IMG/VR virus record: IMGVR_UViG_3300038701_003238
Coordinates: 1 to 38,285 of that record
Strand: one strand, 5' to 3'
Length of the DNA stretch: 38,285 nucleotides
From: a virus
Within the stretch, counting starts at the first letter, position 1, and each line of letters begins with the position of its first letter. The translations under genes and the position numbers were made by a program. Of the stretch, positions 9,944 to 33,153 are shown piece by piece. Under the pieces are notes generated by a model. It did no database searches and had not been told where the DNA came from. It saw nothing but the letters and a program-made list of their open reading frames with translations.

Positions 9944-10012
9944 TACCCGGAGCTTGCGCTCCGGGCTCTTGTTGGATCGGGTGGCGTGGTCTTCGCGCAG
10001 CGAAGCCCACGG
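9944..10012. terminator. Convergent-gene spacer with two hairpin repeats, possible bidirectional terminator
   Basis: This 92-bp spacer between the tail fibre (plus) and the last early gene (minus) contains CCCGGAGC/GCTCCGGG with a 4-nt loop (9946-9965) followed by CTCTTGTT, then a second hairpin CTTCGC/GCGAAG with a GCA triloop (9991-10005). The first (9944-9972) is an exact 29-bp copy of 32919-32947. The second (9977-10012) is an exact 36-bp copy of 31542-31577. The position suits a transcription end for both strands; the T-tract is weak, so termination is inferred. Confidence 0.5.
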
Positions 10013-10014
10013 GG

Positions 10015-10488
10015 TTACTTGCGGCGCTCGGCGTTGTTGATCGTCAGGCGGGCGCGGGCGGCGAAGTTCCAGACTTTGGTGGGTGCATCGGGATCGTTGG
10101 GGCGGGCGTTCATGTTCTGGACGCGCTTGGGCTGCATCGTTTCGATGTGCCGCAGCGCGTGGAGCATCTGTGGTGCCCGTGAAAGCTGCCGCTCGCGACG
10201 CTCGCCGATGCGCAGCCCTTTGAGCAGGGCCTCGGCCATGAGCGTGGTGTCGAGCTGCAGGTCTCGATCGCGGCAAAGTATGCGCTTGATCTGGTCGCCG
10301 CTGAGGCGGTACTGCTGGTTGCGATCCTCGTGGGTGTCGGGCAGGGTCGCGTAGCCGTCTGCGATCAGGCGGGCGACGCCGTTCATCGTGCGCCACCCGT
10401 AGTACCACGGGCGGCCGTTCTTCCTGATCTCGAGCAGGATCTCGAGGCGGAAATCGGTAATGGGCGGGGCGGTGAACGATTCGGGCAT
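10015..10488 (-). CDS. Hypothetical protein, last gene of early operon
   Basis: 157 aa, basic (Arg-rich), mostly helical, with no domain I recognise. The N-terminus has a compact segment FRLEILLEIRKNGRPWYYGW and the C-terminus NFAARARLTINNAERRK is positively charged, so nucleic-acid contact is possible but unproven. The start ATG (10488) has an excellent AAGGAG 8 bases upstream, so it is probably well translated. It follows the DUF3987 gene with an 18-base gap and ends at the convergent spacer of hairpin repeats. As the operon's final gene beside a replication-type protein, an accessory replication role is a guess only. Confidence 0.6.
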   Translation of the reverse strand: MPESFTAPPITDFRLEILLEIRKNGRPWYYGWRTMNGVARLIADGYATLPDTHEDRNQQYRLSGDQIKRILCRDRDLQLDTTLMAEALLKGLRIGERRERQLSRAPQMLHALRHIETMQPKRVQNMNARPNDPDAPTKVWNFAARARLTINNAERRK

Positions 10489-10506
10489 AGATGGCTCCTT
10501 TCCGCG

Positions 10507-12099
10507 TCAGCGGGTGACTTCGGGATGCACGGCGTAGAGCCGCTGGTTGGGTTTGGGTTTGCCGCCCGGGCAGGGGTCGAGCTCGCGGAGGATCTCGTGC
10601 TCGAGGAGGATCTCGATCGGGCGGTCGAGCTCCTCGGTGGTGCTCGGCCCGCCCTGGCGGCCGCGGACGCCCTCGTAGATCTCGGTGCGCTTGATCTGGG
10701 GCCTGCCCTCGCGGCGCAGCAGCTTCACGATCATCGAGGCCATGACGCGATCGGGGTCGGCGGAGGCGAGGCCCTGGGCGACGGCGTCGTGCGCGGTGAG
10801 CCATTCGCCGAACCGGATCGCGGCCTCCATCGTCGCCTGCGAGATCTCGCCGGCCGACCAGCCGCGGCGTTCGAGGCCGATCGCCTGCTCGGCCGCGTGG
10901 AACGCCAGCGCGATCCGCGCCACCGCGCCCGAGAGCTTCGAGCCGTAGTCCTTGCGATCGTTGAGGTCGCCCGATGCGCCCATCGCGTGCTCGAGCTCGA
11001 CGCGGAAGCCGTGCAGCGCACCCCGGGCGGCGCGGGAGAGCGCGTACTGCCGGGCCGGCCCGGGGTGCGATCCGCTGGCACCGCCGGTCTGCGGCGGCAT
11101 CGGCTCGCCGAGCAGGGTCTGCACCAGGTCGTGCCAGGTGCGCCGCGCGGTCTCGTCGATCGCCTTGTCGAGCAGCGGCCGCGAGCCGATCGGGTCGCGC
11201 GGGCAGCACATGAGAAACCGCGCGACGAAGCCCCGGCCCTTGGCCTCCTCGGACCCGAGCACCCGGCGCACCGCGGCCGGCTGGGGCACCAGGCCGATCG
11301 ACACGCACGGGCGCGTGAGGAAGATGCGTTTCCCGCCGGCGCGGTCGACGCCGTGCGAGTCGGCGGCGTGGCCGGCGAGCCAGACGCCGTAGTTGGCGCG
11401 GCCGGAGTTGTACCGGCCCATGATGACCTCGAGCACATCGGGCTCCGCGCTCGTCACCAGGGCACGCTCGCCGTTGCGCGCCAAGAGCCCGGTGAGGGCC
11501 TCGGTGGTGATCTCGGAGCTGATGAGCTGCGGCACCGGCTCGCCGGCGGCGTCGGCCAGGTCGGCCACGAGCTCGTCGGCCTCGGCCTCCTCTTCCAGCC
11601 CGGCCTTGTTCTGCGTGATCCGGGTCCTGAGGTACGCCAGACGCTTCTCGGCGAGCTCGCGGCGGTGCGCGTCCCTGGCGAGGCGGGGCGCGGCCTCGGC
11701 GCTCGCGAGCTTCTCCCATAGGCGCACGGGCCGGATGATCTCGCTGAACACCGCGGATTTGCGGTTGCCCGGTCCGAGCAGCGTCATCGTCCAGAGCGGC
11801 GGCGGCTCTTTCCACGAGCCCCCGCAGTAGAGCTCGCGCTTGCCGGAGATCGCCGCGGAGATCACCGGGAGCATCAGCATGAGCGGGAGCTCGACGGGCA
11901 CCTCGATCGACTCGGCGACGCTGCGGAGGTAGTCGCGCAGGCCGCCCAGGGGCCCCGGGATCAGATCCTCGAGGTCGGCGGGCGGGCCGGCGGGGTCGGT
12001 GTCGATCGGCGCGAGAGGAGGCCAGGGAAGGGGTTCCGGCTGCGCCGGGGCCGGAGGCCCGGGGGTCTGTTCGCGCTTGTGCTTGCCGATGGAGGGCAT
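10507..12099 (-). CDS. DUF3987-type phage helicase/primase-like protein
   Basis: 530 aa from ATG 12099, which has AGGAGG about 10 bases upstream; the open frame runs further upstream but is arginine/proline-rich noise overlapping the next gene. After a Pro-rich N-terminus the protein enters the DUF3987 pattern: LMLMLPVISAAISGKRELY, then WTMTLLGPGNRKSAVFSEII, a P-loop variant (G-P-G-N-R-K-S in place of GxxGxGKS), a long coiled region, ALVTSAEPDVLEVIMGRY (Walker-B-like area), and IGLVPQPAAVRRVLGSEEAKGRGFVARFL, which is typical of DUF3987 'GxxxRFL'. Proteins of this family are used by phages and plasmids as replicative primase-helicase-like factors. With no DNA polymerase in this genome, it is the best candidate replication initiator or helicase. 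Confidence 0.75.
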   Translation of the reverse strand: MPSIGKHKREQTPGPPAPAQPEPLPWPPLAPIDTDPAGPPADLEDLIPGPLGGLRDYLRSVAESIEVPVELPLMLMLPVISAAISGKRELYCGGSWKEPPPLWTMTLLGPGNRKSAVFSEIIRPVRLWEKLASAEAAPRLARDAHRRELAEKRLAYLRTRITQNKAGLEEEAEADELVADLADAAGEPVPQLISSEITTEALTGLLARNGERALVTSAEPDVLEVIMGRYNSGRANYGVWLAGHAADSHGVDRAGGKRIFLTRPCVSIGLVPQPAAVRRVLGSEEAKGRGFVARFLMCCPRDPIGSRPLLDKAIDETARRTWHDLVQTLLGEPMPPQTGGASGSHPGPARQYALSRAARGALHGFRVELEHAMGASGDLNDRKDYGSKLSGAVARIALAFHAAEQAIGLERRGWSAGEISQATMEAAIRFGEWLTAHDAVAQGLASADPDRVMASMIVKLLRREGRPQIKRTEIYEGVRGRQGGPSTTEELDRPIEILLEHEILRELDPCPGGKPKPNQRLYAVHPEVTR

Positions 12100-12101
12100 G
12101 G

Positions 12102-12704
12102 TCAGCTTGCCTCCTCGGCGGCCGGGCCGTCCTTGAGCCAGGCGAGGGCGCGGCGGCAGTCGTCGAGGTCGGCCATGACGGCGTCGAGGTCGCTGTCGGG
12201 GTTCTCCAAGTTGGCGAGGAGGTAGGCGCGGATCTCGTGCTCGGCGGGCTCGATCGCCTGGCGGGCGATCCGCCACAGGTCGGCGAGCGGGTCGGGGCTG
12301 GGGGCCATGGACGCGGCGGTGAGCAGCCAGCCGCGCAGGGTCGAGGCGGAGTGCTCGCTCACGATGGGCATCGGCTGGATCCCGACCAGCGATTCGGCCA
12401 GCATCTCCGCTGGCGAGTTGGGCTCGGTCATCATCCACAGCATCACGCCGCGGTCGTCAAGCGAGCGCAGGATCTTGCGCACGCGCTCGTCGCGCAGCGT
12501 GAGCGCCAGCAGCTCAAGGTCGGCGAAGGATTCGGAGGCGTCCACCGGGCGGGCGCTGGTCGCCGCGTGGACGCTGCGCCACGCCGCTCGCTCCTGCGCA
12601 TCGGCGAATGTCCAGCGGCGGTCGGCGACGGTGCTTACCACTTCGAGGTCGGTCCTTGACAGGTTGAGCGCGAGCACGAGGTCGTCGGGGAGGAGGAGGG
12701 CCAT
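12102..12704 (-). CDS. Hypothetical protein upstream of DUF3987 gene
   Basis: 200 aa, acidic, mainly helical; no known domain recognised. Leu/Asp-rich stretches (DLELLALTLRDERVRKILRS; DAVMADLDDCRRALAWL) suggest a soluble helical protein. Its stop (12102-12104) lies three bases from the DUF3987 start, so the two are co-translated. There is no clear Shine-Dalgarno at ATG 12704. The 84-bp gap upstream, to the next early gene, holds a perfect 8-bp-stem hairpin (12756-12779). Coupling suggests it works with the DUF3987 protein, for example as a loader or regulator, but this is only inference. Confidence 0.6.
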   Translation of the reverse strand: MALLLPDDLVLALNLSRTDLEVVSTVADRRWTFADAQERAAWRSVHAATSARPVDASESFADLELLALTLRDERVRKILRSLDDRGVMLWMMTEPNSPAEMLAESLVGIQPMPIVSEHSASTLRGWLLTAASMAPSPDPLADLWRIARQAIEPAEHEIRAYLLANLENPDSDLDAVMADLDDCRRALAWLKDGPAAEEAS

Positions 12705-12755
12705 CGGTGAAAACCCGCCGGCCGGGCTGTTTCACCGGCTGGGCGGGGGAGAGTC

Positions 12756-12779
12756 CCCGCGCGCTGCACAACGCGCGGG
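12756..12779 (-). other. Intergenic RNA hairpin in early operon
   Basis: CCCGCGCG (12756-12763) and CGCGCGGG (12772-12779) form a perfect 8-bp stem with an 8-nt loop. It lies in the 84-bp gap between two minus-strand genes. No T-run follows on either strand, so it is more likely an mRNA processing or stability element, or a partial terminator, than a full stop. Confidence 0.45.
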
Positions 12780-12788
12780 AGATGAAGA

Positions 12789-13946
12789 TCAGGGGTCGGG
12801 TGCGGTCATTTCGTCGTTGGTCGGGTGGCCACGCTCGGGCGCGATCTGCCACTCGGGCACCGGGTTGCCGGGGGTGAAGATCCGGCGGACCTGGCCGGCG
12901 GCGCGCAGCTCCTCGAGCACGGCCGCGAGGTCATCGGGCTCGTCGCCGAGCGCGTCGATGATCTGGCCCTTGGTGCGGGGCTTGCCGTCGCGCAGCAGCG
13001 CGCCGAGCGAGGCGGCGGTGGCGTGGGCGCCCTCTTGGGCGGCTATGGGCTTTTCATGGGTGGGACGGGCAAGATGCCCGTCCGAGTTTGCGGGCTTCAC
13101 CAGGCCGACGCGGACCGTGCGCCGGTTGACCGCGGTGGGCTGGATGTGCGGGTCGAGCCAGACAAAGCCCTGCTCGGCGAGGGATTTGAGGATGTCCCAG
13201 AAATCGTTGAACTCGGTACCCGGCAGCGCGCACATCGCGTACACAAACTCGGCACGCACGGCGGTCCGTTGGCTCGAAAGGTAGCTGATGACACTGTTGC
13301 CCATGTCGGTTTCGCGCTTGCCGGGGAAGGTTGGGCCGGGCTCGGGCTCCGTCGGCCCGGCACTGGCGGGCGAGCCGCCAGTGGCACCTGGCGAGGCGGC
13401 GGTGGCGTGGGCGACTTGGGTAGGTTGGTCGTTCGTCGTGTTCTCTCCGGTGAGACGGAGCATCAGCTTCGCGCAGCCGTCGATGATGTCGGCGGCAAAC
13501 TCCTCCCAGGTCTCGCTGTCCGGCGGGCTGTCGGCCCAGCGCATCAGTTGCCCGGCGAATTGGCGGCAGATGTAATCGTGCGAGAGCGTCGGGCCCTTGG
13601 GCTGCGATCGGCGGCCTGTGTACGAATTCAGCAGCTGCTCGAATTCGTTGGGGAACACGAGGTCTTGGGTCACGCGAACGGTGTGGGTCGACTTGGTCTG
13701 CCTCAGCTTCTCGGCGAGTTCGTCGCGGGTGGCGCGGAGCTCGGCTTTGGCCGCGGCGTCCTTGCGCTGCAGCTCGCGGGTCTCGATCAGCTCGCCGTAG
13801 AGCTGCGAGGGCGTGAGTTTCGCGCTGCGCCAGACCGTGCAGGCGTCCTCGCAGATCGCGAGCATCAGCGGCGGGAAGATCGGATCGGAGAGATTCGTCG
13901 GGAGGTTCTGGCCCGCTTCGGGCTGGGCGGCGGTCGCCTGGTTCAT
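12789..13946 (-). CDS. Hypothetical protein with winged-helix-like repeats and two embedded hairpin elements
   Basis: 385 aa; start ATG 13946 with AGGAG 8 bases upstream. I recognise no named family. The N-terminal half is helical (ETRELQRKDAAAKAELRATR is coiled-coil-like). The middle and end contain two stretches that look like small DNA-binding winged helices: EFVYAMCALPGTEFNDFWDI, and LRDGKPRTKGQIIDALGDEP followed by DDLAAVLEELRAAGQVRRIF. The linkers between them are encoded by two palindromic repeat elements (13353-13388 and 13063-13083), each next to a 23-bp direct repeat giving the peptide AHATAAS. So the linkers look like inserted DNA tolerated in frame. Possibly an early DNA-binding regulator; function unproven. 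Confidence 0.65.
   Translation of the reverse strand: MNQATAAQPEAGQNLPTNLSDPIFPPLMLAICEDACTVWRSAKLTPSQLYGELIETRELQRKDAAAKAELRATRDELAEKLRQTKSTHTVRVTQDLVFPNEFEQLLNSYTGRRSQPKGPTLSHDYICRQFAGQLMRWADSPPDSETWEEFAADIIDGCAKLMLRLTGENTTNDQPTQVAHATAASPGATGGSPASAGPTEPEPGPTFPGKRETDMGNSVISYLSSQRTAVRAEFVYAMCALPGTEFNDFWDILKSLAEQGFVWLDPHIQPTAVNRRTVRVGLVKPANSDGHLARPTHEKPIAAQEGAHATAASLGALLRDGKPRTKGQIIDALGDEPDDLAAVLEELRAAGQVRRIFTPGNPVPEWQIAPERGHPTNDEMTAPDP
13063..13083. repeat. Palindromic repeat E inside an early gene
   Basis: GGACGGGC (13063-13070) pairs with GCCCGTCC (13076-13083) around a 5-nt loop. Single copy in this window, within the gene 12789-13946 and 290 bp from repeat D. It resembles a bacterial intergenic hairpin repeat type known to me from planctomycete genomes. 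Confidence 0.6.
13353..13388. repeat. Palindromic repeat D inside an early gene
   Basis: Stem CACTGGCGG/CCGCCAGTG (9 bp) with a 5-nt loop. The 36-bp block matches 31597-31632 with a single mismatch (13370 versus 31614, in the loop). Here it is within the coding sequence of the gene 12789-13946; the other copy is intergenic. I recall near-identical hairpins as abundant intergenic repeats in planctomycete genomes. Confidence 0.8.
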
Positions 13947-13973
13947 GCGTGTGCTCCTGGAAAGAGGTGAATG

Positions 13974-14001
13974 GCCCCGGCGACGGTCAGGCCGCCGGGG
14001 C
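13974..14001 (-). other. Intergenic hairpin between early genes
   Basis: GCCCCGGCG (13974-13982) and CGCCGGGGC (13993-14001) form a perfect 9-bp stem with a 10-nt loop, in the 97-bp gap downstream of the 14044-14898 gene. No T-run follows on the minus strand. Possibly an attenuator or an mRNA 3'-end stabiliser. Confidence 0.45.
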
Positions 14002-14043
14002 GCTCGCGTGGTGCGGGCTGCATCCGCCCGCGAGGTATGCCGG

Positions 14044-14898
14044 TCAGGCGAACGAGCAGTCGCCGACGACGCGGAGGCCGAGCGAGTCCTCGGCGGCGAA
14101 GTCGAACAGCCGTTCGGTGAGGTACTGCTCGATCAGCTTGTTGGCGGCGATCTGGGCGGCCTCGATCTGGCCGGCCTTGGGGATCACGGCAAAGGTGCCT
14201 TCCTCCATGTTGATGTGCAGCACGCACTCGACCGGGTGCGACCACTCGATGTCGAGCGAGGGCATCAGATCGTTGACGGTCGTGTGCAGCGTGATCTCGT
14301 CGGGGAGCTCCGCGGCGAGGCCGGCGACCTTCTGCTCGACGGACTTCTGCACCGACTCGCGGCCGTGGTGGACGCCCGAGGTCACCTCGCCGTCGGACTT
14401 GAACTTGAGCTGCGAGAGATCGGTGGCGAACTGCTTGTTGTGCCGGTCGGGGAACAGCGTGCGCAGCGACCGGATGAGGGTCTTCTGGCTGTCGTAGGTC
14501 GGGGCCTTGTGCGGGGCGCGGCTCAGCAGCCAGCACATGCACGCCGACGGGGACTTGTTCAGCGTCACCATGCCGACGGTCTCGTTGGAGGTATCGTTCA
14601 GCTCGGCGCGGATCTGGCTCTCGCCGATGCACAGCAGGGCCGACGCCGCGCTGATCGGCTTGTAGGCCGGCCCGGCGATCGCCGTGAACGCATCGCCGAG
14701 CCCGCCCAGCGAGTCGGCTTTCAGGTGGAGCGGGGCGCGGACGGTCGCGTCGTGGTTGATCTCTCCGTGCGCGGTGACCAGAACGCAGTCGCCGTTGACG
14801 GGGTTGCGGAGCCAGCCGGGCTTGGCGCTGTCGCGCACCAGCGCGGCGATGTCCTTGATCGTGCTGTCTTTCAGGTCGTGGCTTGTGATCTGTTCCAT
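14044..14898 (-). CDS. Phage early protein, possibly DUF2303 family
   Basis: 284 aa, start ATG 14898 with AGGA about 8 bases upstream. Sequence features: a β-rich N-terminal half (GDCVLVTAHGEINHDATVRA), a conserved-looking middle SAPHKAPTYDSQKTLIRSLR-like segment (actual text SRAPHKAPTYDSQKTLIRSL), and a β-rich C-terminal half ending in a helix IAANKLIEQYLTERLFDFA. The length, the order and the following 122-aa gene remind me of the DUF2303 (YfdQ-like) early proteins of temperate phages, whose function is unknown. The match is by memory, without a diagnostic motif. Flanked on both sides by ~90-bp gaps, unlike the overlapping genes upstream, so it has its own translation signals. Confidence 0.6.
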   Translation of the reverse strand: MEQITSHDLKDSTIKDIAALVRDSAKPGWLRNPVNGDCVLVTAHGEINHDATVRAPLHLKADSLGGLGDAFTAIAGPAYKPISAASALLCIGESQIRAELNDTSNETVGMVTLNKSPSACMCWLLSRAPHKAPTYDSQKTLIRSLRTLFPDRHNKQFATDLSQLKFKSDGEVTSGVHHGRESVQKSVEQKVAGLAAELPDEITLHTTVNDLMPSLDIEWSHPVECVLHINMEEGTFAVIPKAGQIEAAQIAANKLIEQYLTERLFDFAAEDSLGLRVVGDCSFA

Positions 14899-14988
14899 GC
14901 GTGTTTTTCCTGATGAAAGGGGTGGCCGCGACGCACGCTGCGGCGCGGTGGTGTGGGGGGGGAGGGTGTGAAGCGGTTGCCCTGGGGA

Positions 14989-15357
14989 TCAGCCGGCGTC
15001 GTCGCCTTCGATGACCTCGCCGGTCGTCTGGTCGATCGTCATCTGCCGGATGCTGTCGAGCGATGCGTCGTTCACGAACGCGGTGCCGTTCGCGCTGGTC
15101 GACATGGAGTACACCTTCGACTTCACCTGCGGAATGTTCAGCTTGAAGTCGACGGTGACATGGGTCTCGTCGCAGACGCCGTCCTGGCCGGCGGCGGGCT
15201 TCATCGTCACGATCATCGTCAGCTTGCGGGCCTGGGTGTCCCCGGGCCGCTCGGTCATGTCGGTGATCATCGCCTTGATGGCGTTGATGAACCGCTCGGC
15301 GTTGCGGCCCCCGTCCATGTTGGCGAGGGTCTGAAGCGTGAAGGCCTTGGTGGGCAT
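14989..15357 (-). CDS. Small early protein, resembles phage 'replication terminator'-type family
   Basis: 122 aa from ATG 15357 (AGGAG 7 bases upstream); the open frame upstream of that Met is low-complexity. Core: TLANMDGGRNAERFINAIKA, then RKLTMIVTMKP and THVTVDFKLNIPQVKSKVYS. This helix followed by two β strands, with 'GG.x.aE.xN.a.k', is like small phage proteins that databases often label 'replication terminator protein' (a name without experimental support in phages). It is next to the possible DUF2303 gene, a common pairing. Role unknown. Confidence 0.55.
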   Translation of the reverse strand: MPTKAFTLQTLANMDGGRNAERFINAIKAMITDMTERPGDTQARKLTMIVTMKPAAGQDGVCDETHVTVDFKLNIPQVKSKVYSMSTSANGTAFVNDASLDSIRQMTIDQTTGEVIEGDDAG

Positions 15358-15400
15358 CGTGGAACTCCTGCGGCGCTGGCCGCGGTTTGGGGTGGCTGGT

Positions 15401-15661
15401 TCAGGCGAGGCCGCGCTCGGCGAGCTCGACGACATCGCGGTGGCGGATGAGCTTGCAGCCGCGAATCTGCACGGGGGTGAGCGCGCCCGAGGCGACGAGC
15501 CCGGCGATCAGCCGCTTGCTCACCGAGAGCAGCCGGGCCGCCTCGGCGTAGGTCACGAGGATGGGAGGGGGCGGCGTCTGCGGCGCAGCGCTCTCGTCGT
15601 CGCCGGGGTCGCGATCGACCGGTGCGAGCTTCGCGCGGTGGTGGTCGATGGGGTTGGTCAT
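15401..15661 (-). CDS. Small HTH protein, excisionase/AlpA-like
   Basis: 86 aa; start ATG 15661 overlaps the upstream stop in an ATGA. After a Pro-rich 33-residue tail it has a MerR/HTH_17-type winged helix: VTYAEAARLLSVSKRLIAGL, then VASGALTPVQIRGCKLIRHR and DVVELAERG. This is the form of excisionases and AlpA-like regulators, where the helix binds DNA and the 'GxxLxRhrDvxeL' end is the wing. As the phage has a tyrosine integrase and attP, this is a plausible recombination directionality factor, though it could also be a transcription regulator. It sits deep in the early operon, so it would be made when the lytic cycle starts, as expected for Xis. Confidence 0.7.
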   Translation of the reverse strand: MTNPIDHHRAKLAPVDRDPGDDESAAPQTPPPPILVTYAEAARLLSVSKRLIAGLVASGALTPVQIRGCKLIRHRDVVELAERGLA

Positions 15662-16092
15662 ATCGACGGCGTCCCCTTCCTCCACACGCACGGCAGATCG
15701 AGCCTGCCGGCGGGCGGGATGCACAGCCATCGCATCGGCGCGTGGTTCACGAGGTCCTGCTCGGCGGGGTAGATCTCGATCGCGTCCTGGTCCTCGCCGA
15801 TGATGTCGTTCTTGATGCTCTGGATCTGCGACCAGCTGGTCGCGATCTCGGTCTGCGTCCGGTTGCAGATGCCCAGGCGCATCCAGCCCGACGGCTCGAT
15901 GAACAGCTGCACCATGTAGGTGTGGCTCAGCCACACCTCGCGACAGTGCTTCGGGGTGGCCGGGGCGTCGGGGTTGATGTCGAAGCGTCGCCATCGCAGG
16001 CCGCCGCACTCGGTGGGGAGTTCGGTCCCGAGCTTGGTTCGGTTGGGCACCGTGACGGGTGCGATCTTCATTCGCGTAGCGAGGGTCTTCAT
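15658..16092 (-). CDS. Hypothetical early protein (DUF7694-like)
   Basis: 144 aa, ATG 16092, overlapping its neighbours by 4 bases on both sides. Contains PDAPATPKHCREVWLSHTYM, a β-rich centre, SWSQIQSIKNDIIGEDQDAI, then EIYPAEQDLVNHAPMRWLCI. The pattern 'W-x-x-[IL]-Q-x-I-K-N-D-x-x-G-x-D-x-x-A-[IV]-E-[IV]-[FY]-P' followed by 'N-x-x-x-x-R-x-L-W' is one I know from a small phage/bacterial family of unknown function (I believe DUF7694). No catalytic site is evident. Translational coupling puts it with the HTH protein and the PolX-like enzyme. Confidence 0.62.
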   Translation of the reverse strand: MKTLATRMKIAPVTVPNRTKLGTELPTECGGLRWRRFDINPDAPATPKHCREVWLSHTYMVQLFIEPSGWMRLGICNRTQTEIATSWSQIQSIKNDIIGEDQDAIEIYPAEQDLVNHAPMRWLCIPPAGRLDLPCVWRKGTPSI

Positions 16093-16721
16093 GCGTGCGT
16101 CCTCGCGTACTGGTCGCGGTTGTGGGGCTCGACGAAGGGCAGGCCGGCGAGGGCGAGGTAGGCCTCCTCGCTGGTGACGGGCACGCGCGCCAGGGTGGTG
16201 AGGTCGACGAGCTCGCCGTCCTTCTGGCGGTACTCTCTGCGGGCGTTGAACGCACGCATCACGAGCTCGGAGAACAGCGGCGGGCCGGTGCGGATCGTGA
16301 GGATCGCGCCCCAGGTGGTCGGCTCGGCCGCGAAGAACTCGTGGTGCACCCACTCGCCCCGGAACAGCAGGTCGTAGCCGCGGTAGCGGTCGCCCAGGCG
16401 GTGCATCGGGTTCAGATCGCTCGCGCGGTAGTTGTGCGGCCGGGCGGTGCCGGCTCGGGCCATCGCCTCGAGGGCGTGCCAGAGCAGGTTGGCCTCGCGG
16501 GGAAAGAGCGAGCCCTCGACGGGCACCGTGCCGTAGACCGGCAGCATGACATGCTCGATATCGTGCACCTCCGAGCGGCCGCGGCGGAGCGAGCCGGCGA
16601 TGCACCAGCGGGTGGAGTACCTCGAGAGCGCGGCCATCGCGGCGGTGGCGTGCGCCATCGCCTTGTCGCGCGAGACGCGGCGGAGGGGGGCTCCGCTGCG
16701 CGGGGGGGAGGTGGTGGTCAC
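16089..16721 (-). CDS. PolX-like nucleotidyltransferase
   Basis: 210 aa from GTG 16721, which overlaps the upstream stop in a GTGA. A pol-β-type nucleotidyltransferase signature is visible: WCIAGSLRRGRSEVHDIEHV, with G43-S44, R46-R47 and D54-I55-E56 standing for the GS...DxD metal site. Further on, WGAILTIRTGPPLFSELVMR and AFNARREYRQKDGEL correspond to the PolX 'T-G-x-x-x-F-x-x-x-[LM]-x-x-x-A' element of the palm/thumb. The second acidic residue is Glu rather than Asp, so polymerase activity is not assured. It lacks the 8-kDa and PHP domains of full bacterial PolX. Suggested role: nucleotide addition or gap filling on phage DNA. It is the only polymerase-like protein in the genome. Confidence 0.72.
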   Translation of the reverse strand: MTTTSPPRSGAPLRRVSRDKAMAHATAAMAALSRYSTRWCIAGSLRRGRSEVHDIEHVMLPVYGTVPVEGSLFPREANLLWHALEAMARAGTARPHNYRASDLNPMHRLGDRYRGYDLLFRGEWVHHEFFAAEPTTWGAILTIRTGPPLFSELVMRAFNARREYRQKDGELVDLTTLARVPVTSEEAYLALAGLPFVEPHNRDQYARTHA

Positions 16722-19358: not shown

Positions 19359-19377
19359 GCAGAGTGAAAGTTTTTTG

Positions 19378-19973: not shown

Positions 19974-20033
19974 CCGTGGGCTCGGCTGCGCCGAGACCAC
20001 GCCACCCGGAGGGAAACCACGGCCCGTGGAGAA
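19974..20033. repeat. Hairpin repeats B and C after the membrane protein gene
   Basis: 19974-20010 is a reverse-orientation relative of repeat B: stem CTCGGC-GCA-GCCGAG flanked by GTGG/CCAC, compared with CTTCGC-GCA-GCGAAG at 9991-10005, so the changes keep base pairing. 20016-20032 is the complement of the 17-mer TCTCCACGGGCCGTGGT (repeat C). Together they fill most of the 114-bp gap before the small terminase and may act as transcript ends. Confidence 0.75.
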
Positions 20034-21095: not shown

Positions 21096-21096
21096 C

Positions 21097-23468: not shown

Positions 23469-23485
23469 TCTCCACGGGCCGTGGT
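23469..23485. repeat. Repeat C before large terminase
   Basis: TCTCCACGGGCCGTGGT, identical to 29046-29062 and, in reverse, to 20016-20032. Palindromic core CCACGGGCCGTGG. It lies 57 bp before the large terminase start. Confidence 0.75.
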
Positions 23486-25334: not shown

Positions 25335-25337
25335 GCG

Positions 25338-26999: not shown

Positions 27000-27538
27000 T
27001 GGCTCTGCCCGATGGTGGATACGACCCGGACGACGATCGCGGTCCCCTCGATGAGGATCCGCAGGACCAGGTGCGCCGCGAGCGGAGGGTGTACCGCGCC
27101 GCGATGTTCGAGAACGAGTATGGCCGCCGGGTCATGCGGGCGATGGTCGAGGCGGTGCTGCTCGAGGACAGCTTCGAGCTCGCCGATGGCGACCCGGTCC
27201 GCATGGCCTACCTCGAGGGGCGGCGGTCGGTCGTTCGCGACCTGCTCCGCAAGGGCGGTCTGCAGCTGCAACTTGTGTCCGGTGAGCATCGAGGCGAGCC
27301 GGCGAATTCCTTTCCAGTGACGGAGCCAGACGATGAACCCGCCAGCCACACCAACCACACCCGCGACACCGACCACGCCGACGACGCCAGCGACGCCGAC
27401 GACGCCAACCACGCCATCAGTGCCGACGGCGCCCGCGACACCGACCTCGCCGGCGACGCCAGCCACACCCGCGACGCCGACCACGCCGACGACACCGGCC
27501 ACACCGGCGGCGCCGGCGACGCCCGCCGGGGGGGCTGA
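26999..27538 (+). CDS. Bbp19-like structural protein with repeat-encoded tail
   Basis: 179 aa; ATG 26999 overlaps the portal stop. Residues ~25-95 fit a small phage family known from Bordetella phage BPP-1 Bbp19: YRAAMFENEYGRRVMRAMVE, then DPVRMAYLEGRRSVVRDLLR ('F-x-[TS]-x-x-G-x-x-V-L' and 'F-x-E-G-x-R-x-[LV]-V'). The last ~68 residues, from 27333, are Asp/His/Thr/Ala-only and come from a simple-sequence region that in another frame codes the scaffold's N-terminus. So 206 bp are dual-coding. The real protein may be functionally the first ~110 residues with an unselected tail. Confidence 0.72.
   Translation: MALPDGGYDPDDDRGPLDEDPQDQVRRERRVYRAAMFENEYGRRVMRAMVEAVLLEDSFELADGDPVRMAYLEGRRSVVRDLLRKGGLQLQLVSGEHRGEPANSFPVTEPDDEPASHTNHTRDTDHADDASDADDANHAISADGARDTDLAGDASHTRDADHADDTGHTGGAGDARRGG
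27333..27535. repeat. Trinucleotide-like simple repeat, dual-coding
   Basis: About 200 bp made of 3-bp periodic units such as ACCACGCCGACG and GCGACGCC. Frame 3 gives (T-P-A)n for the scaffold start; frame 2 gives D/H/T/A for the end of the preceding gene. The minus strand is open too (GVVGVAG-type). Such a tract is prone to slippage, so its length may vary between phage relatives. Confidence 0.85.
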
Positions 27539-28328
27539 TCGTCAGGGATTTTGGTCGCAGCTCACCGATGAGCAGTTCAACGCGGTGCCCGAGGAGCTTC
27601 GCGAGGCGAAGTCGCTCGGGCAGTTCAAGTCGATCGAGGATCTGCTCAAGGGTTATGTGCAGACCAAAGCGATGGTCGGCGCGAAGTCGGTCGTGGTGCC
27701 GAGCAAGAACGCGACGCCCGAGCAGCGCGAGGAGTTTTTCAAGGCGATCGGACGGCCCGACCAGGCCGCCGAGTACGACGCGCCCGCCTCGGATGCGCTG
27801 CCCGACGGCTACACGATGGGCGAGACAGATCTCAACCACCTGCGCACGGTGGCGCACGGGCTCGGGCTGAGCAAGGCCCAGGGGGAGCAGTTGATCGGCG
27901 AGTACGCCAAGCTGCACGCCCAGCAGCTGGCCGGCGAGCAGCAGCAGATGCTGCAGCGGCACACCGACGCCGAGAAACAGCTGCGCGCGGAGTGGGGCGG
28001 TGAGTTCGACGCGAGGCTCGACACGGCCAAGCTCGCGATCAAAGAGCTCGGCGGCGACGCGCTCGTTGCCGAGCTCGAGAGCTCGCGGCTCGGCGATCAT
28101 CCCGAGATCGTCAAGGCGTTCTACAAGGTCGGCCAGATGATCGGCGATGACCCCGGCCTGGTCACTTCCGGAACGGCCAGGCTCTCGGTCGCGCCGGTCG
28201 AGGCGAAGCAGAAGATCGCGCAGCTCAAGAGCGACTCCGATTTCATCCGGCGGCGTGATCGGGGCGAGAAGGGCGCGGTGGATGAGTGGAATCGACTGCA
28301 CCAGATCGCGTACTCCTCGACCAGCTGA
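27333..28328 (+). CDS. Scaffolding protein, T7 gp9-like
   Basis: 331 aa; GGAG 7 bases before ATG 27333. The first ~67 residues are a Thr-Pro-Ala tract of TPATPTTP-type repeats, presumably disordered. Then a typical podovirus scaffold follows: FWSQLTDEQFNAVPEELREA, FKSIEDLLKGYVQTKAMVGA, then a long acidic helical part and a basic C-terminal helix (SDSDFIRRRDRGEKGAVDEW) that binds capsid protein. The segment 'SIEDLLKGYVQTKAMVG' with 'LPDGYTMGETDL' is characteristic of scaffolds. It lies before the capsid gene as in T7. The N-terminal repeat overlaps the preceding gene in another frame. Confidence 0.82.
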   Translation: MNPPATPTTPATPTTPTTPATPTTPTTPSVPTAPATPTSPATPATPATPTTPTTPATPAAPATPAGGADRQGFWSQLTDEQFNAVPEELREAKSLGQFKSIEDLLKGYVQTKAMVGAKSVVVPSKNATPEQREEFFKAIGRPDQAAEYDAPASDALPDGYTMGETDLNHLRTVAHGLGLSKAQGEQLIGEYAKLHAQQLAGEQQQMLQRHTDAEKQLRAEWGGEFDARLDTAKLAIKELGGDALVAELESSRLGDHPEIVKAFYKVGQMIGDDPGLVTSGTARLSVAPVEAKQKIAQLKSDSDFIRRRDRGEKGAVDEWNRLHQIAYSSTS

Positions 28329-28388
28329 TCGAGCGCGGGACGGTGAGCACACTTGCGGCCGCGGGCCGTGCAATGAAAGGGCCAGCCA

Positions 28389-28976
28389 ATGTCTGGAAAA
28401 CAGAACGCGAAGAAGCAGAACGCGCAAGGGGGCGGCGCAGACGCCCTCGAGGAAGCCAAGCCGGCGGAGAGCGAGCTCGTGAGTTCGGAGCCGGTTGTCG
28501 AGGCGATGGAAGCGAAGTCGTCGGACCCTGGGCTCGGATCAGCCGAGACCACGCCACCCGGCGATGTGCCCGATTTCGACGAATTTCGTGACGCATTGAG
28601 AGCCGAGAATGAGCGTTGGTTTGCCGCGCTGCGCGACGGGCTGGCTGCTTCGGCGGCAAAGGATGTTGGTGTCGGCGATCGCGTGCTGGTGTACGCGCCC
28701 GCGTTCGGTCACACGATCCATGTGCGCGGCGAGGGGCTCAAGGTCGAGCCGAAATGGCAGTGTGAAGCGCGTCCCGGGTTTGTGATGCGTGTTCACCGGC
28801 GTGACGGTTCGATCGAGCTCGATGTGCGCGTGCTTGCGGACACCGATACCGACCGCGTCGCGGAGTCGATGCCGATGGTGCTGGGTGTGCGTCTGCTCGA
28901 GATCACGCCCCGTGATCCCTCGCCGGTCCCGCCGAGCGGCGTCGTGGCGAAGCCGGTCGCGATCCTGAACGAGTGA
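28389..28976 (+). CDS. Hypothetical late protein with embedded repeat B
   Basis: 195 aa; AAAGGG site before ATG 28389. The N-terminal ~60 residues are charged and low-complexity and contain SDPGLGSAETTPPGD, encoded by a decayed repeat B (28527-28561). The C-terminal ~130 residues are a compact β-rich domain (VGDRVLVYAPAFGHTIHVRG; VMRVHRRDGSIELDVRVLAD) that looks like an SH3/OB-like barrel. No named family recognised. Position between scaffold and capsid suggests a head-assembly or structural part, but this is context only. A strong terminator follows at 29028. Confidence 0.65.
   Translation: MSGKQNAKKQNAQGGGADALEEAKPAESELVSSEPVVEAMEAKSSDPGLGSAETTPPGDVPDFDEFRDALRAENERWFAALRDGLAASAAKDVGVGDRVLVYAPAFGHTIHVRGEGLKVEPKWQCEARPGFVMRVHRRDGSIELDVRVLADTDTDRVAESMPMVLGVRLLEITPRDPSPVPPSGVVAKPVAILNE
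28527..28561. repeat. Repeat B relative inside 28389-28976 gene
   Basis: GGCTCGG (28531-28537), 3-nt loop-like ATC, then AGCCGAG and ACCACGCCACCCGG, matching the right half of the 19974-20010 element. In frame within the gene; adds the peptide LGSAETTPPG. Confidence 0.6.
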
Positions 28977-29027
28977 GCTCGAGCGTTTCGGAGCGGCGGC
29001 GGAGCCTCCTTGTCCGTTCGTCGATTG

Positions 29028-29074
29028 CCACCACGGCGAGCCGTGTCTCCACGGGCCGTGGTGGTTTTCGTTTT
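29028..29074 (+). terminator. Strong terminator before capsid gene
   Basis: CCACCACGGC (29028-29037) pairs perfectly with GCCGTGGTGG (29055-29064), followed by TTTTCGTTTT (29065-29074). The right arm is a repeat C copy. It divides scaffold-side and capsid-side transcripts, so the capsid gene is either read through or has its own promoter. Confidence 0.85.
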
Positions 29075-29316
29075 GGGTCTTGAACCTCGGGGCCGGTCCG
29101 CCGATGCTTCGTTTCAGCAGGAGCCGTGAGACTACCTGCGACGGTCGGCAGCCGACGGCGCACCCCCCTTCTGAGGACAGACAGAGGGCGGGAGTCGCAA
29201 GTCGGGAGGCCGCTCCGGCGCGGGCCTTGATGGCGAAGCGACTCGTGCTGCGTCGACCGGAGCCGGTTCTCTTCTGGGGAGCGGCTTCCGGCGACGAGTG
29301 CCCCCGGCCGCGAGCG

Positions 29317-29343
29317 GCTGCGCCCACCTCCTCCGGGCGCAGC
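29317..29343 (+). other. Stem-loop with anti-Shine-Dalgarno loop upstream of capsid gene
   Basis: GCTGCGCCC (29317-29325) and GGGCGCAGC (29335-29343) make a perfect 9-bp stem. The 9-nt loop is ACCTCCTCC, which is complementary to a Shine-Dalgarno GGAGG. It lies 80 bases before the capsid start codon and could pair with ribosome sites in cis or trans. Function inferred. Confidence 0.6.
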
Positions 29344-29422
29344 CGTGCGGCGGACTAGGCCCAGCGAACCCTCCATGTTCACGATGGGGGCCGCTGAGTC
29401 GGCCCCGATGGGGATCGCTCCA

Positions 29423-30334
29423 ATGAGCCAAATCCAAACGCTGTGGGTCGAGCAGTTCAACTCGAACCTCGACATTACGCCGCAGCAGCTCACCTCGAAG
29501 CTGCTCGGCACCGTGACAACCAAGTTCAATGTGAACGCCGAGACCGCCTGGTACGACACGACCGGCGTCGCCGAGGGCGAGGACGATCCGGCACGCTACG
29601 CCGACGCGCCCAACAATGTGAAGAGCCGTGAGCGTCGCGGCCTGGTGCCTCGCAAGAGCCACACCGGCGAGGTGTACGACACGCTCGACCAGCTCCGCAT
29701 GCTGGCCGACCCGACCAACGAGGACATGGTCGCGATGCGTGCGTACTGCGCACGCAAGATCGACTTCCGGATCTCGCGGGCGGCCGTCGGCCTCGCGCTC
29801 ACCCGCGACTCGCAGGGCGAGACTTCCAATGTGGCGTTCGACACGGCCACCAAGCGCGTCGCCGTCAATGTGATGAACAAGGGCGAGTCGCCGGCGAACA
29901 CGGGCCTCAATGTGGGCAAGATCGCCAAGGGGCTCGAGCTGCTCTCGGGCGCCGAGATCGAGCCGAGCACCGACGAGATCTGGTGCGTGATCGGCAACCA
30001 GCAGGCCAACGATCTGATCCAGGAGGTCAAGGTCGGGTCGAGCGACTACAACTCGCTGATGCCCATGATGACCGGCCAGATCGGCCGCTACATGGGCGTC
30101 AACTTCATCCGGTACGGCAACCTGCAGGTGCCCGTCACCAACCAGCGGCAGTGCCTGATGTACACGACCCGCGCGATCGTCGCCGGCTTCCTCGGATCGC
30201 AGCCCATCGAGGGCAAGATGTGGAAGCGCAGCGACCTCGCCGACGAGCCCTGGTACGGCTACGCCAAGACCGAGGTCGGCGCGGTGCGCCGTCACGATGT
30301 GGGCGTCGTCGACATTCTCTGCCTCGAGGTCTGA
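29423..30334 (+). CDS. Major capsid protein
   Basis: 303 aa from ATG 29423, chosen because GGGG is 9 bases upstream and the sequence from here (SQIQTLWVEQFNSNLDITPQ) looks like a capsid start; earlier in-frame ATGs at 29375 and 29408 are possible. Features of temperate-podovirus capsids: AETAWYDTTGVAEGEDDPAR, then VPRKSHTGEVYDTLDQLRML, ILTLE-type helix ISRAAVGLALTRDSQGE and the late conserved GSQPIEGKMWKRSDLADEPW followed by YGYAKTEVGAVRRHD. It should make the icosahedral shell (HK97 fold by family). It follows scaffold as expected. Two short hairpins (30342-30359, 30398-30414) lie in the gap to the next gene. Confidence 0.85.
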   Translation: MSQIQTLWVEQFNSNLDITPQQLTSKLLGTVTTKFNVNAETAWYDTTGVAEGEDDPARYADAPNNVKSRERRGLVPRKSHTGEVYDTLDQLRMLADPTNEDMVAMRAYCARKIDFRISRAAVGLALTRDSQGETSNVAFDTATKRVAVNVMNKGESPANTGLNVGKIAKGLELLSGAEIEPSTDEIWCVIGNQQANDLIQEVKVGSSDYNSLMPMMTGQIGRYMGVNFIRYGNLQVPVTNQRQCLMYTTRAIVAGFLGSQPIEGKMWKRSDLADEPWYGYAKTEVGAVRRHDVGVVDILCLEV

Positions 30335-30341
30335 TCCGGTC

Positions 30342-30414
30342 CCCCTGTTTTCGCAGGGGCGGGCAGGGTTATCGACGGCAACACGATGAACCAGTAGCGC
30401 GGCTTTTCGCCGCG
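30342..30414 (+). other. Two hairpins between capsid and next gene
   Basis: CCCCTG-TTTTCG-CAGGGG (30342-30359) and CGCGGC-TTTTC-GCCGCG (30398-30414). Neither is followed by a T-run, so they are more likely mRNA stabilising or processing sites that help keep capsid mRNA abundant than terminators. Confidence 0.4.
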
Positions 30415-30428
30415 AGAAAGTCACAACG

Positions 30429-30866
30429 ATGGCAACTTTCAGTGCACCGCGCATGGCGGTGATCGAGTCTTCCAAGGCTCTGAACGCGAAGTACAACGGC
30501 GGCCGGGTGCGCTGCTTCGCCGAGCGGTTCAACCTCTCGACGATCAACGGCGGCACGGCGCTCGCGATCAACGATGTGGTGAAGGTCGGGCGCGTGCCCA
30601 AGGGCGCGGTCTTCCTCAAGGGGGAGATCACGACCACGGTCACGCTCGGGTCGACGCAGGTCTCGATCGGGGACTCGGGCAACGCCGCACGCTTCCGCGC
30701 CGCGGCGGTGCTCACCTCGACGAGCGCGATCGAGATCTTCGCCGCTGCCGCCGGGCGGCAGTACGAGTTCCCCGAGCTCACCGAGATCCTGCTCACGGTG
30801 ACGGCCGCGGCCGCGCCCAACAGCGACAACTGGGTCGAGGTGAAAACCTACTACACCAGCGAGTGA
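30429..30866 (+). CDS. Probable virion (capsid decoration-like) protein
   Basis: 145 aa, ATG 30429 without a clear Shine-Dalgarno. β-rich with many Thr/Val/Ala: LAINDVVKVGRVPKGAVFLK, then GEITTTVTLGSTQVSIGDSG. 'DVVKVGRVPKGAVFL...TLGSTQVSIGD' is like small structural proteins (100-150 aa) that lie after the capsid gene in podoviruses and act as decoration or cement (as Bbp16 in BPP-1). No enzymatic motif. Assignment is by position and composition. Confidence 0.62.
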   Translation: MATFSAPRMAVIESSKALNAKYNGGRVRCFAERFNLSTINGGTALAINDVVKVGRVPKGAVFLKGEITTTVTLGSTQVSIGDSGNAARFRAAAVLTSTSAIEIFAAAAGRQYEFPELTEILLTVTAAAAPNSDNWVEVKTYYTSE

Positions 30867-31002
30867 TCGAGCACGGCCGGCCACGGACGGGCCAAGTCCC
30901 TGGGCCGGTTGTCTGGTCCCGGCCTGGGGCACCCGGTGCGGGGCGGCTGTTCACTCGGCCGCTCCGCCATTTCTCTGCATCAGATTTCAAAGCGAGGTAT
31001 CG

Positions 31003-31536
31003 ATGACCGCCGTAGTAAAACAGACCACGATGCGGGGCGACTGGCGGCTGGGGGCCGCGGCCAACCTCACGAACACGACGGCCATCGCGGCGCGCATCGC
31101 GCGGGCGGCGGGCGACCCGCCGGTGAGCGGGGCCGACCGGATCGTGCTGGACGCGAGCGCGAACCTCTCGGTGCTCTCGTTCTTCGGGACCGACGCGGAC
31201 GACGAGGTGATCAACTTCACGATCATCGGCTGGCGCGAGATCCTCAACGCCTCGGGCGAGGTGATCGGCTGGCTGGGCGTGCACCTGGCGACCGGCACGG
31301 CCACGCTCTCGGGCTCGATCACCGGCGCGGCGGGCGTCACCCCGAACGGGACCGACGACTACTTCGCCGACGAGATCGCGGTCAGCGCCGGGACCGATGC
31401 GGTCGAGGCGGTCGAGGGCGTGGCCGATGTGCTGGCCGCGCACCTCGCGATCGACCCCAAGGGCTGCAAGAAAATCGAGGTGTTCCTCGACCGCGACTCG
31501 GCGGCGAGCGCGAATGTGCTGTACGCGGAGCTGTAG
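31003..31536 (+). CDS. Probable virion structural protein
   Basis: 177 aa; GAGGT site before ATG 31003. β-rich, Ala/Gly/Thr-rich, with a repeated mood of short strands (VLSFFGTDADDEVINFTIIG; TATLSGSITGAAGVTPNGTD) and a C-terminal acidic helix. No known family recognised. Follows the decoration-like gene in the capsid cluster, so likely a head or head-neck protein; a jelly-roll-like fibre is also possible. Two hairpin repeats (B and D) start 5 bp after the stop. Confidence 0.58.
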   Translation: MTAVVKQTTMRGDWRLGAAANLTNTTAIAARIARAAGDPPVSGADRIVLDASANLSVLSFFGTDADDEVINFTIIGWREILNASGEVIGWLGVHLATGTATLSGSITGAAGVTPNGTDDYFADEIAVSAGTDAVEAVEGVADVLAAHLAIDPKGCKKIEVFLDRDSAASANVLYAEL

Positions 31537-31541
31537 CGGAT

Positions 31542-31632
31542 TCGGGTGGCGTGGTCTTCGCGCAGCGAAGCCCACGGACGCGAGAACAGGGGCCGACGGC
31601 CCGGCACTGGCGGACGAGCCGCCAGTGGCACC
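31542..31632. repeat. Hairpin repeats B and D in tandem
   Basis: 31542-31577 is an exact 36-bp copy of 9977-10012 (repeat B). 31597-31632 matches 13353-13388 (repeat D) with one mismatch. They fill the gap between the 31003 and 31657 genes. The upstream stop is at 31534-31536, so they may supply a transcript end or stabiliser. Confidence 0.85.
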
Positions 31633-31656
31633 AGAGAACGGGAACAGGAGCTGAGC

Positions 31657-32331
31657 ATGAAACGCGGATTGATGGTCGGGATGGTGCTGGGGCTGCTCGC
31701 GGTGCTGCTCGCGACGACGACGCCGGGCTGCGCGAGCCGGGAGCAGATCGAGCAGGGCTTGCAGACCGCGCAGGATGAGAGTGCCTGGCTGGACGGCGAA
31801 CTCGACCGCTACCAGGCGGTGCTCGACGCGGTGAACGCCGACCTGGCGAACTTCGAGCCCGGCACGCCCGAGCACGCGGAGCTGTCGAAAGTGCTCCGCG
31901 AGACGCAGCGGGCGATGAACGATGTCCGCTCGATCAAGGGCGGCGTCGATGAGCGCATCGAGGGCTACCTGGCCGAGCTGGCGCAGATCCCGGAGGACGC
32001 GCCCGATTGGCAGGTCTCGGGTCGGCTGACCGGCAAGGTGCTCAAGGATGAGTCGAAGGAGCTGCCGCACCCGTGGAACTGGATCGCCTACGGCGTGGGT
32101 TCGGCGGTTATGGCGGTCTCGACCGTCGGCTGGGCTCGGACTCGCCGGGCGGTCTACGAGATCGTCGGCGGCGTCGAGGACGGCAAGCGCTACAACCCCG
32201 ACCTCGCCGACGAGATGGACGCGGCGAGCCCGTACATCCGGGCGGGCCAGAGCGCCTCGACGAAGGCCATCGTGTCGAAGGTCCGCCACAAGTTGGGCGC
32301 TGCCAAGCCGAAGCCGGTCGCGGAGGGCTGA
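31657..32331 (+). CDS. Phage lipoprotein with internal membrane segment
   Basis: 224 aa from ATG 31657; a GGAG lies just upstream. N-terminus: Lys-Arg, hydrophobic LMVGMVLGLLAVLLATTT, then lipobox TPGC (Cys about residue 24) and A-S, so probably a lipoprotein. Next a long helical, acidic coiled-coil-like region (EQIEQGLQTAQDESAWLDGE ... RETQRAMNDVRSI), then a second apolar segment WNWIAYGVGSAVMAVSTVGW (~residues 133-152) and a basic tail. Lipoprotein plus transmembrane segment is the plan of u-spanins, but those put the membrane helix at the very end. Being just before a holin-like gene, a role in lysis is plausible. Family unknown. Confidence 0.68.
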   Translation: MKRGLMVGMVLGLLAVLLATTTPGCASREQIEQGLQTAQDESAWLDGELDRYQAVLDAVNADLANFEPGTPEHAELSKVLRETQRAMNDVRSIKGGVDERIEGYLAELAQIPEDAPDWQVSGRLTGKVLKDESKELPHPWNWIAYGVGSAVMAVSTVGWARTRRAVYEIVGGVEDGKRYNPDLADEMDAASPYIRAGQSASTKAIVSKVRHKLGAAKPKPVAEG

Positions 32332-32335
32332 GCCG

Positions 32336-32626
32336 GTGTCGGGAGCTGACGAGAGCAAGATCGTGATCCTGCTGCGCGAGCAGAACGACCTGTTGCTCGC
32401 GCACCGCGAGGAGCAAATCAAATCCTCGGCGCGGCTCGATGCGCTGTGCGCCGACATGGCCGACATCAAGCTCTCGATCCGCGAGGACCGGCACGGCGAG
32501 CGGATCCGGGTGATCGAGGCCAATCAGGAGACCACGAAGTTCTGGGTCCGGTGCATCGGATCCACGGCCGTCGGGGCGTTCCTGATGGCGCTGTTCGAAC
32601 TGATCCGCCACAAAGGCGGATCCTGA
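32336..32626 (+). CDS. Holin-like small membrane protein (XhlA-like)
   Basis: 96 aa from GTG 32336, with GGAGGG 8 bases upstream (inside the previous gene's end). An N-terminal helical/coiled region (ESKIVILLREQNDLLLAHRE; MADIKLSIREDRHGERIRVI) leads to one transmembrane helix near the C-terminus (WVRCIGSTAVGAFLMALFEL) and a short basic end. This is the shape of XhlA/class-III-like holin proteins: coiled coil then a single TM. It may form or regulate the lysis pore with the lipoprotein upstream. No endolysin is next to it. A hairpin (32631-32649) follows the stop. Confidence 0.68.
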   Translation: MSGADESKIVILLREQNDLLLAHREEQIKSSARLDALCADMADIKLSIREDRHGERIRVIEANQETTKFWVRCIGSTAVGAFLMALFELIRHKGGS

Positions 32627-32630
32627 ATCT

Positions 32631-32652
32631 CGCCCGCGTGTTGCGGGCGTTT
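32631..32652 (+). terminator. Hairpin after holin-like gene
   Basis: CGCCCGC (32631-32637), 5-nt loop GTGTT, GCGGGCG (32643-32649), then TTTA. A possible weak intrinsic terminator; the T-run is short. Confidence 0.5.
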
Positions 32653-32781
32653 ACTCGCACCGGGCCGCGCCGGCGTTCGCCGGGCCGCCCACCGCAGGAA
32701 CGATTGACTGCTTGCGGTCTTCCGTTCCGAGCGTCGCGAGTCGAGTGGGCCCTTGCCCGGTGAAAGCCGGGTGAGGGTTTT

Positions 32782-33153
32782 ATGAAGCGGGTTCCGAAAT
32801 CCAAGCGCATCGCCGCTGCCGCACTCGCCGTTGCGATTCCGGTCGGATTGGTGTTCTTCGCGCCAAGTCCAAGTCGGCCTGCTCCTGTCTCTGTGAAGAG
32901 CGGCGGCGAGCAGGCCGGTACCCGGAGCTTGCGCTCCGGGCTCTTGTCCGAGCCGGTCGAGACGATCGAGTGGGAGCTGGTCGAGCTGGTCGGCTACGAC
33001 GCCAACGGCGAGATGGTGACGATGCCGCTGGCGTATCACCGATCGACATGGCACGACCTCAACCCGTGCCCGTTCGATGTGAACGGCGACGGCGCGGTGG
33101 ACCTCGACGACATCGACGGGGTGCTGTCGCACTTCGGGGAGGGCTGCGACTGA
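32782..33153 (+). CDS. Secreted dockerin-like protein
   Basis: 123 aa; TGAGGG just before ATG 32782. N-terminus: basic KRVPKSKR then AAAALAVAIPVGLVFFA, a signal peptide or anchor. C-terminal 28 residues form a dockerin-type calcium loop: D99-x-N101-x-D103-G104-x-x-D107-x-x-D110, framed by Cys96 and Cys122 and followed by LSHFGEG. In planctomycetes (Phycisphaerae) many secreted proteins end in such 'C-x-D-[LV]-N-G-D-G-x-V-D-x-x-D' modules; I do not know this in other phages. Residues ~46-56 (TRSLRSGLLSE) are coded by repeat A (32919-32947). Function unknown; perhaps a host-derived surface or adhesion module. One-base overlap with the next gene. Confidence 0.75.
   Translation: MKRVPKSKRIAAAALAVAIPVGLVFFAPSPSRPAPVSVKSGGEQAGTRSLRSGLLSEPVETIEWELVELVGYDANGEMVTMPLAYHRSTWHDLNPCPFDVNGDGAVDLDDIDGVLSHFGEGCD
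32919..32947. repeat. Repeat A inside dockerin-like gene
   Basis: Exact 29-bp copy of 9944-9972 with hairpin CCCGGAGC/GCTCCGGG. Here it is in frame in the dockerin-like coding sequence, in the linker between signal peptide and calcium domain. Confidence 0.9.

Follow-up and report, generated by a model that had tools for sequence, protein, structure and literature searches.

Host-type palindromic repeats of five families in the genome of a predicted temperate, podovirus-like phage

The IMG/VR record IMGVR_UViG_3300038701_003238 is a virus DNA of 38,285 bp (hereafter the window, i.e. the whole stretch analysed), with a guanine-cytosine (GC) content of 69.7% and a 126-bp direct terminal repeat. 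It carries about ten palindromic elements of host type, which belong to families A (4 copies), B (2), C (2), D (1) and H (1). Sequence comparison supports an assignment of these five families to the genomic repeats of one bacterial class with planctomycete-like markers, and A, C and H, probably also B and D, are best read as repetitive extragenic palindromes (REPs) or REP-like elements of the lineage that hosts the phage. We consider it probable that host REPs were inserted into the phage DNA after its split from the nearest sequenced relative, with REP-associated tyrosine transposases (RAYTs) of the host as likely movers in trans; the RAYT step, the route and the timing are what we infer from the comparisons below.

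Repeat elements in the window

The elements of host type are the following:

A1, 9979-10012, forward strand: REP of family A, exact to the family pattern, with a GTGG foot and one T.C mismatch in its stem; lies in a convergent intergenic junction
A2, 19974-20007, reverse strand: REP of family A with the compensated inner stem CTCGGC/GCCGAG, intergenic
A3, 28526-28559, reverse strand: degenerate REP of family A, one mismatch to the pattern
A4, 31544-31577, forward strand: intergenic REP of family A that matches A1 exactly over 36 bp
B1, 13354-13388, forward strand: hairpin of family B, CACTGGCGG/CCGCCAGTG, inside the open reading frame (ORF) 12789-13946
B2, 31598-31632, forward strand: hairpin of family B, intergenic, 20 bp past A4
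C1, 9944-9972, forward strand: hairpin of family C, CCCGGAGC/GCTCCGGG, 6 bp ahead of A1
C2, 32919-32947, forward strand: hairpin of family C, inside ORF 32782-33153
D, 8602-8636, forward strand: hairpin CCTCACCCCGGCCCTCTCCC...GGGAGAGGG, directly 3' of the gene for the internal virion protein
H, 13059-13083, forward strand: hairpin with a GGTGG foot, GACGGGCA/TGCCCGTC, inside ORF 12789-13946

A preliminary description of this DNA had reported several long matches between such elements, and these were recovered: 9977-10012 equals 31542-31577 in 36 of 36 positions, and 9944-9972 equals 32919-32947 in 29 of 29. The B pair, described as differing by one change in the loop, matches in 38 of 40 positions (13349-13388 and 31593-31632); the loop change is present, and a second change lies 5' of the element. 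A fuzzy scan of the window finds family A at 9979 and 31544 on the forward strand and at 19974 and 28526 on the reverse strand, together with two copies each of B, C and a further family F, three copies of a family E, and one of D. Chance matches amount to 0-0.2 per family for A, B, C, D, E and H in first-order Markov sequences of the same composition. Family H (13059-13083) is a seventh family, which was missing from the earlier account.

The three good A copies (A1, A2, A4) fold into a GTGG foot followed by a stem of 11-12 bp with one T.C mismatch. For hairpins of the window that have 9 or more paired bases and a GT[AG]G foot, the listing gives 7 as compared to 0.3 expected, six of the seven being these three copies, each entered twice. 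The stem changes that keep pairing, CTTCGC/GCGAAG versus CTCGGC/GCCGAG, are real in the phage copies, and copies in the bacterial genome G001 (see below) likewise change on both sides of the stem (CGTGG/CCACG to CATGG/CCATG). Element D is bracketed by CGATCCG direct repeats of 7 bp (8590-8650), a possible target duplication; IS200-type enzymes are not known to produce target duplications, and these repeats are therefore not used as evidence.

Occurrence in bacterial genomes

Family A was scanned in 85,000 bacterial and archaeal species genomes, with one true match: G001, a metagenome-assembled genome of 3.4 Mb ('bacterium isolate bin.19'). A Streptomyces match in the same scan was rejected, as it is a lone match with a 7-nt insert and no inner stem. 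Apart from this chance match, the phage-type A pattern is found in G001 only, which also holds exact C and B elements. G001 contains 10 elements of family A (reversed-pattern control: 0), 15 of family B and 9 of family C, as well as two copies of D on the same contig as the A match. Family A matches 8 of 298 genomes of the class concerned, and B matches 27 of these 298 with up to 143 copies. For family C, 16 copies are present in G243 and sequence variants in other class genomes. Family H, with GGTGG ahead of the stem, has 8 copies in 3 of 150 class genomes, all other than G001 (controls: 0). Thus A, B and H exceed their reversed-pattern controls in one bacterial class, and so does C in G001 and several other genomes.

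The arrangement of the elements recurs as well. The C-A order of 9944-10012 is also found on contig C43 of G001, where C is followed by A within a few bases in the same orientation. The joint density of A, B and C in the phage is about 20 times that of G001. As a side observation, repeat clusters of G001 mix families as the phage does, with D, A and, in inverted orientation, a further A in a space of about 200 bp (locus L086, positions 1-1330).

The preliminary description had taken the hairpins for bacterial-type repeats. This is borne out for A, B, C and H in the class genomes and for D in G001. F stays at control level, and the 249 kb of G001 that were examined yielded no E.

Transposases associated with the families

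G001 encodes three Y1 transposase genes. One of the proteins (177 aa) is a RAYT according to the NCBIfam model REP_Tyr_transpos (97.3 bits, cut-off 80), and its gene is flanked on both sides by inverted A elements at 11 and 12 bp from the ORF. A-type elements also adjoin RAYTs in G186 and G289. A second Y1 gene of G001 (contig C196) lies between inverted C elements and encodes the motifs SNHVHVVVSA and YTLEGQ; this NHVH and Y----Q signature was matched by eye to the description of class 3 (PMC6006769). In G234 the only two C elements of the genome both surround a RAYT gene, 44% identical to the C-flanked gene of G001 and with one in-frame stop. Simple chance estimates for the two arrangements in G001 (A with RAYT, C with Y1) are about 1e-7 and 7e-7. 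Since A and C flank transposase genes, REP-type elements with cognate enzymes appear to be present in the host class. Family A in particular combines a palindrome of 20-40 bp and a GT[AG]G foot with multiple copies in a bacterium and a flanked cognate RAYT, as is typical of REPs, A3 being degenerate.

The phage itself shows no significant match to host RAYT proteins (tblastn against the window), in line with the earlier statement that it carries no transposase for these repeats. As for a RAYT of the host that might act in trans, the class genomes hold RAYTs flanked by A and by C.

Comparison with related viruses

A DUF3987 helicase and a phage integrase are encoded in the window, alongside a terminase, a head protein, tail proteins, a T7-like head-tail connector (portal) and a large internal virion protein. 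From this gene set the phage is predicted to be temperate and podovirus-like. The window contains no transfer RNA (tRNA) genes.

The nearest relative, L005 (19 kb), has 75% DNA identity over the terminase-portal region, and its synteny with the window covers most of 12.6-31.5 kb. L005 contains no element of families A, B, C, D or E. The gene directly ahead of A4 can be aligned with L005 at its 3' end, and both A4 and B2 are missing at the corresponding site there. At this site, the 5' flank of which can be aligned, L005 has an inverted pair of H elements instead, which folds as one long hairpin resembling a REP doublet forming a hairpin (REPIN). Two sister phages thus carry different REP families at one intergenic site. 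In addition, about 1.2 kb at 12692-14044, including the ORF 12789-13946 with B1 and H, is without counterpart in L005.

Among 79 other terminase-relative loci, none has any of the elements. Queries with A, C and B in scans of the whole IMG/VR collection gave no other record, H was found in L005 only, and the C-A pair and B have no match in INPHARED and PLSDB. The elements are therefore not common to the relatives of this phage. For A, B, C, D and H, neither of the two outcomes that the preliminary description had named as contrary to its reading, absence from bacteria or inheritance by all phage relatives, was observed. A relaxed A pattern gave 14 matches in viral contigs, which were rejected because they look like chance and seem to lack the full REP stem; several are evidently one coding sequence in related contigs.

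The 1202-aa internal virion protein had no relative in the viral scan; a sister sequence that could serve in an empty-site test is therefore missing for the left arm (1-12.6 kb). A phage gene contains, at 27317-27541, a degenerate tandem repeat with a 9-bp unit of GACGCC type, in 17 overlapping registers for a match of 81 nt.

Position of the elements

C1 and A1 share one convergent junction, and A2, A4, B2 and D lie between genes; the gaps between phage genes that hold A1, A4 and B2 are short (about 90-135 bp). Not every element is extragenic: B1, H and C2 are inside ORFs, and A3 is possibly coding, in the N-terminal linker of ORF 28389-28976, which the gene model dropped. By this simple gene model of our own, at least 6 of the 10 host-type elements are located in the 15% of the DNA that is non-coding (P about 0.001). 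No T-run is found 3' of the host-type hairpins. REPs inside flexible parts of proteins are known from bacteria (PMC6006769). Such a distribution agrees with insertion and subsequent purifying selection; the hairpins may also serve as terminators, but the distribution can be accounted for without this.

The ORF that holds C2 in frame (32782-33153) encodes a small exported-looking protein with a dockerin-like C-terminus, possibly host-derived cargo. The terminal motif matches a GC-type dockerin model weakly, under the cut-off.

Families F and E

Two further families of the window have a different distribution:

F1, 1729-1804, forward strand: three-hairpin leader repeat, ending at a start codon
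F2, 8649-8728, forward strand: F leader repeat ahead of a tail-fibre-like gene
E1, 20017-20032, forward strand: palindrome CCACGGCCCGTGGAGA
E2, 23469-23484, reverse strand: E palindrome upstream of the terminase gene
E3, 29046-29061, reverse strand: E palindrome upstream of the major head protein gene

The composite repeat described earlier was found again at 1729 and 8650, and the 17-mer at 20016, 23469 and 29046. F comprises three hairpins and ends just ahead of a start codon in all three copies, two in the window and one in L005 (16865-16949); the stem sequences differ and the layout is the same. The gene that follows F is not the same in the two phages, and the L005 copy stands directly 3' of a tRNA-Met gene. 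The short F core is at chance level under a lax setting of 4 mismatches; F exceeds chance by its two exact copies and a 61-bp, 87% match to L005. A host origin of F was rejected, as matches to the core in 120 host-class genomes about equal the control and the only other viral copy is that of L005. F is a leader repeat of the phage lineage.

E is a 13-bp palindrome CCACGGCCCGTGG followed by AGA. Its three copies occupy non-coding gaps, one ahead of an early gene, one ahead of the terminase gene and one ahead of the head gene. The palindrome may be a regulatory site of the phage, of operator type.

Identity of the bacterial class

The resemblance to planctomycete repeats that had been stated in the preliminary description finds indirect support, and the class is probably planctomycetal. 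PF07596 (DUF1559) was found in 5 of 6 class genomes as compared to 0 of 14 control genomes, many of the matches being short and N-terminal. The 16S ribosomal RNA gene reads GGCTGC at the EUB338 site in G001, G186 and G289, which we take to be the planctomycete variant. The probe targets PLA46 and PLA886 have no exact match, and the GGCTGC variant is present in some of the genomes, so that the 16S data are only suggestive. The weak GC-type dockerin match of the phage protein 32782-33153 is a further pointer, and all these markers together suggest planctomycetes without being proof. Identity to G001 over the part of the 16S gene compared is 85.6% for G186 and 88.5% for G289.

Possible origin of the elements

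The families belong to the host class and two of them flank transposase genes; host enzymes therefore probably seed the phage genome with host repeats. In this scheme, HUH/Y1 transposases of the RAYT type in the host would recognise the single-stranded hairpin together with its 5' foot, and would act in trans on prophage or on replicating phage DNA, which exposes single strands. Copies would survive where they do little harm, that is between genes, in a convergent junction or in frame within linkers. The entry of the five families would postdate the split from L005.

Several observations weigh against such insertion by host RAYTs. There is no exact empty site: with an identity of 75% and a poor alignment between genes, comparison with L005 leaves the insertion boundaries blurred. 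In Pseudomonas the REPIN pair is regarded as the mobile unit (PMC3116915), and the phage copies are single REPs. For B, D and H no RAYT was found; the tblastn search for B covered a fetched sample of loci, and no search aimed at H was made. A foot of the GT[AG]G or CnGA type is not clear in family C, and CnGA was not seen directly at the stem foot on either strand. The portal protein, used as prophage probe, has no match in the 298 class genomes; hence a link to a host through a prophage relative is missing. G001 is probably not the host, because its sampled GC content is 63% as compared to about 70% in the phage.

The most serious alternative, which we regard as rather unlikely, is passive entry inside short segments of host DNA by illegitimate or homologous recombination between prophage and chromosome, without transposase activity on phage DNA. 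The stretch 12.69-14.04 kb with B1 and H, which L005 lacks, would be in agreement with this, as would C2 in its possible cargo gene, and E. coli REPs in phage records mainly accompany bacterial or transduced DNA (see below). However, the short gaps around A1, A4 and B2 leave scant space for host flanks, and five families at many sites would require many separate events.

The hairpins may instead be kept for their use to the phage, as transcription terminators or as protectors of RNA 3' ends, whatever their route of entry. The excess in non-coding DNA, the position of D and A4 past stop codons and of C1-A1 in the convergent junction, and the different hairpin pair of L005 at the A4-B2 site all speak for such a role. 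The missing T-runs and the location of B1, H and C2 inside ORFs speak against it, however, and purifying selection against genic insertion accounts for the same bias, so we judge this explanation improbable.

That the elements are inherited regulatory repeats of the phage without a tie to the host holds for F and is possible for E, but is refuted for A, B, C and H by their recurrence in bacterial genomes; A-E are moreover missing from L005 and the other terminase-relative loci, and as a general account it is very unlikely. An assembly artefact fusing host repeats to phage contigs, conceivable as the record is metagenomic and repeats are where assemblers mis-join, can practically be dismissed in view of the terminal repeat, the synteny with L005 and the recognisable phage genes on either side of most elements.

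Relation to known systems and possible implications

Family A resembles the class 2 REP/RAYT system (TnpA_REP; E. coli REPtron; PMC6006769, PMC8266576) in its GT[AG]G foot, irregular stem, multiple copies and inverted RAYT flanks. It differs by the GTGG foot, the planctomycete-like host class and the copies in a phage without RAYT. The C-flanked gene of G001 shares NHVH and Y----Q and multicopy hairpin flanks with class 3 Y1 transposases, which are reported mainly from Planctomycetes (PMC6006769); family C differs in that no clear CnGA foot was seen, and the class is assigned by motif alone. REPINs (PMC3116915) are resembled by inverted pairs in G001 (A at contig C25, B at C146, C168 and C196) and by H in L005. 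The single, unpaired elements of the window differ from these.

As a yardstick, 50,697 phage records were scanned with two E. coli REP consensus sequences. The matches listed are largely bacterial contigs, unannotated fragments, a transduced bio locus and single copies by host-like genes. They share with the present case a host REP in a phage record; they do not amount to five families spread through one phage. Measured by this, about ten REP-type elements from five families are unusual for one phage, as had been claimed from the density of the hairpins. No report of host REPs accumulating in a phage was found in the papers searched. The REP families and RAYTs belong to a known kind, and the novelty lies in their build-up within a phage.

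In vitro, REPs are cut by RAYTs, but transposition in nature is difficult to observe in chromosomes, and there is still no settled view of REP movement. A small phage genome with several families, together with a sister that has another family at one site, offers bounded insertions with defined targets. We tentatively hypothesize that REP/RAYT transposition regularly targets phages and uses them as a vehicle, in that host RAYTs load several REP families in trans and the phage carries them to new hosts. If true, this would account for the patchy spread of REP families between species, and such genomes would be a natural record of recent RAYT activity. The finding may thus point to a route for the horizontal spread of REPs, and may provide a host marker for phages of uncultured planctomycete-like bacteria.

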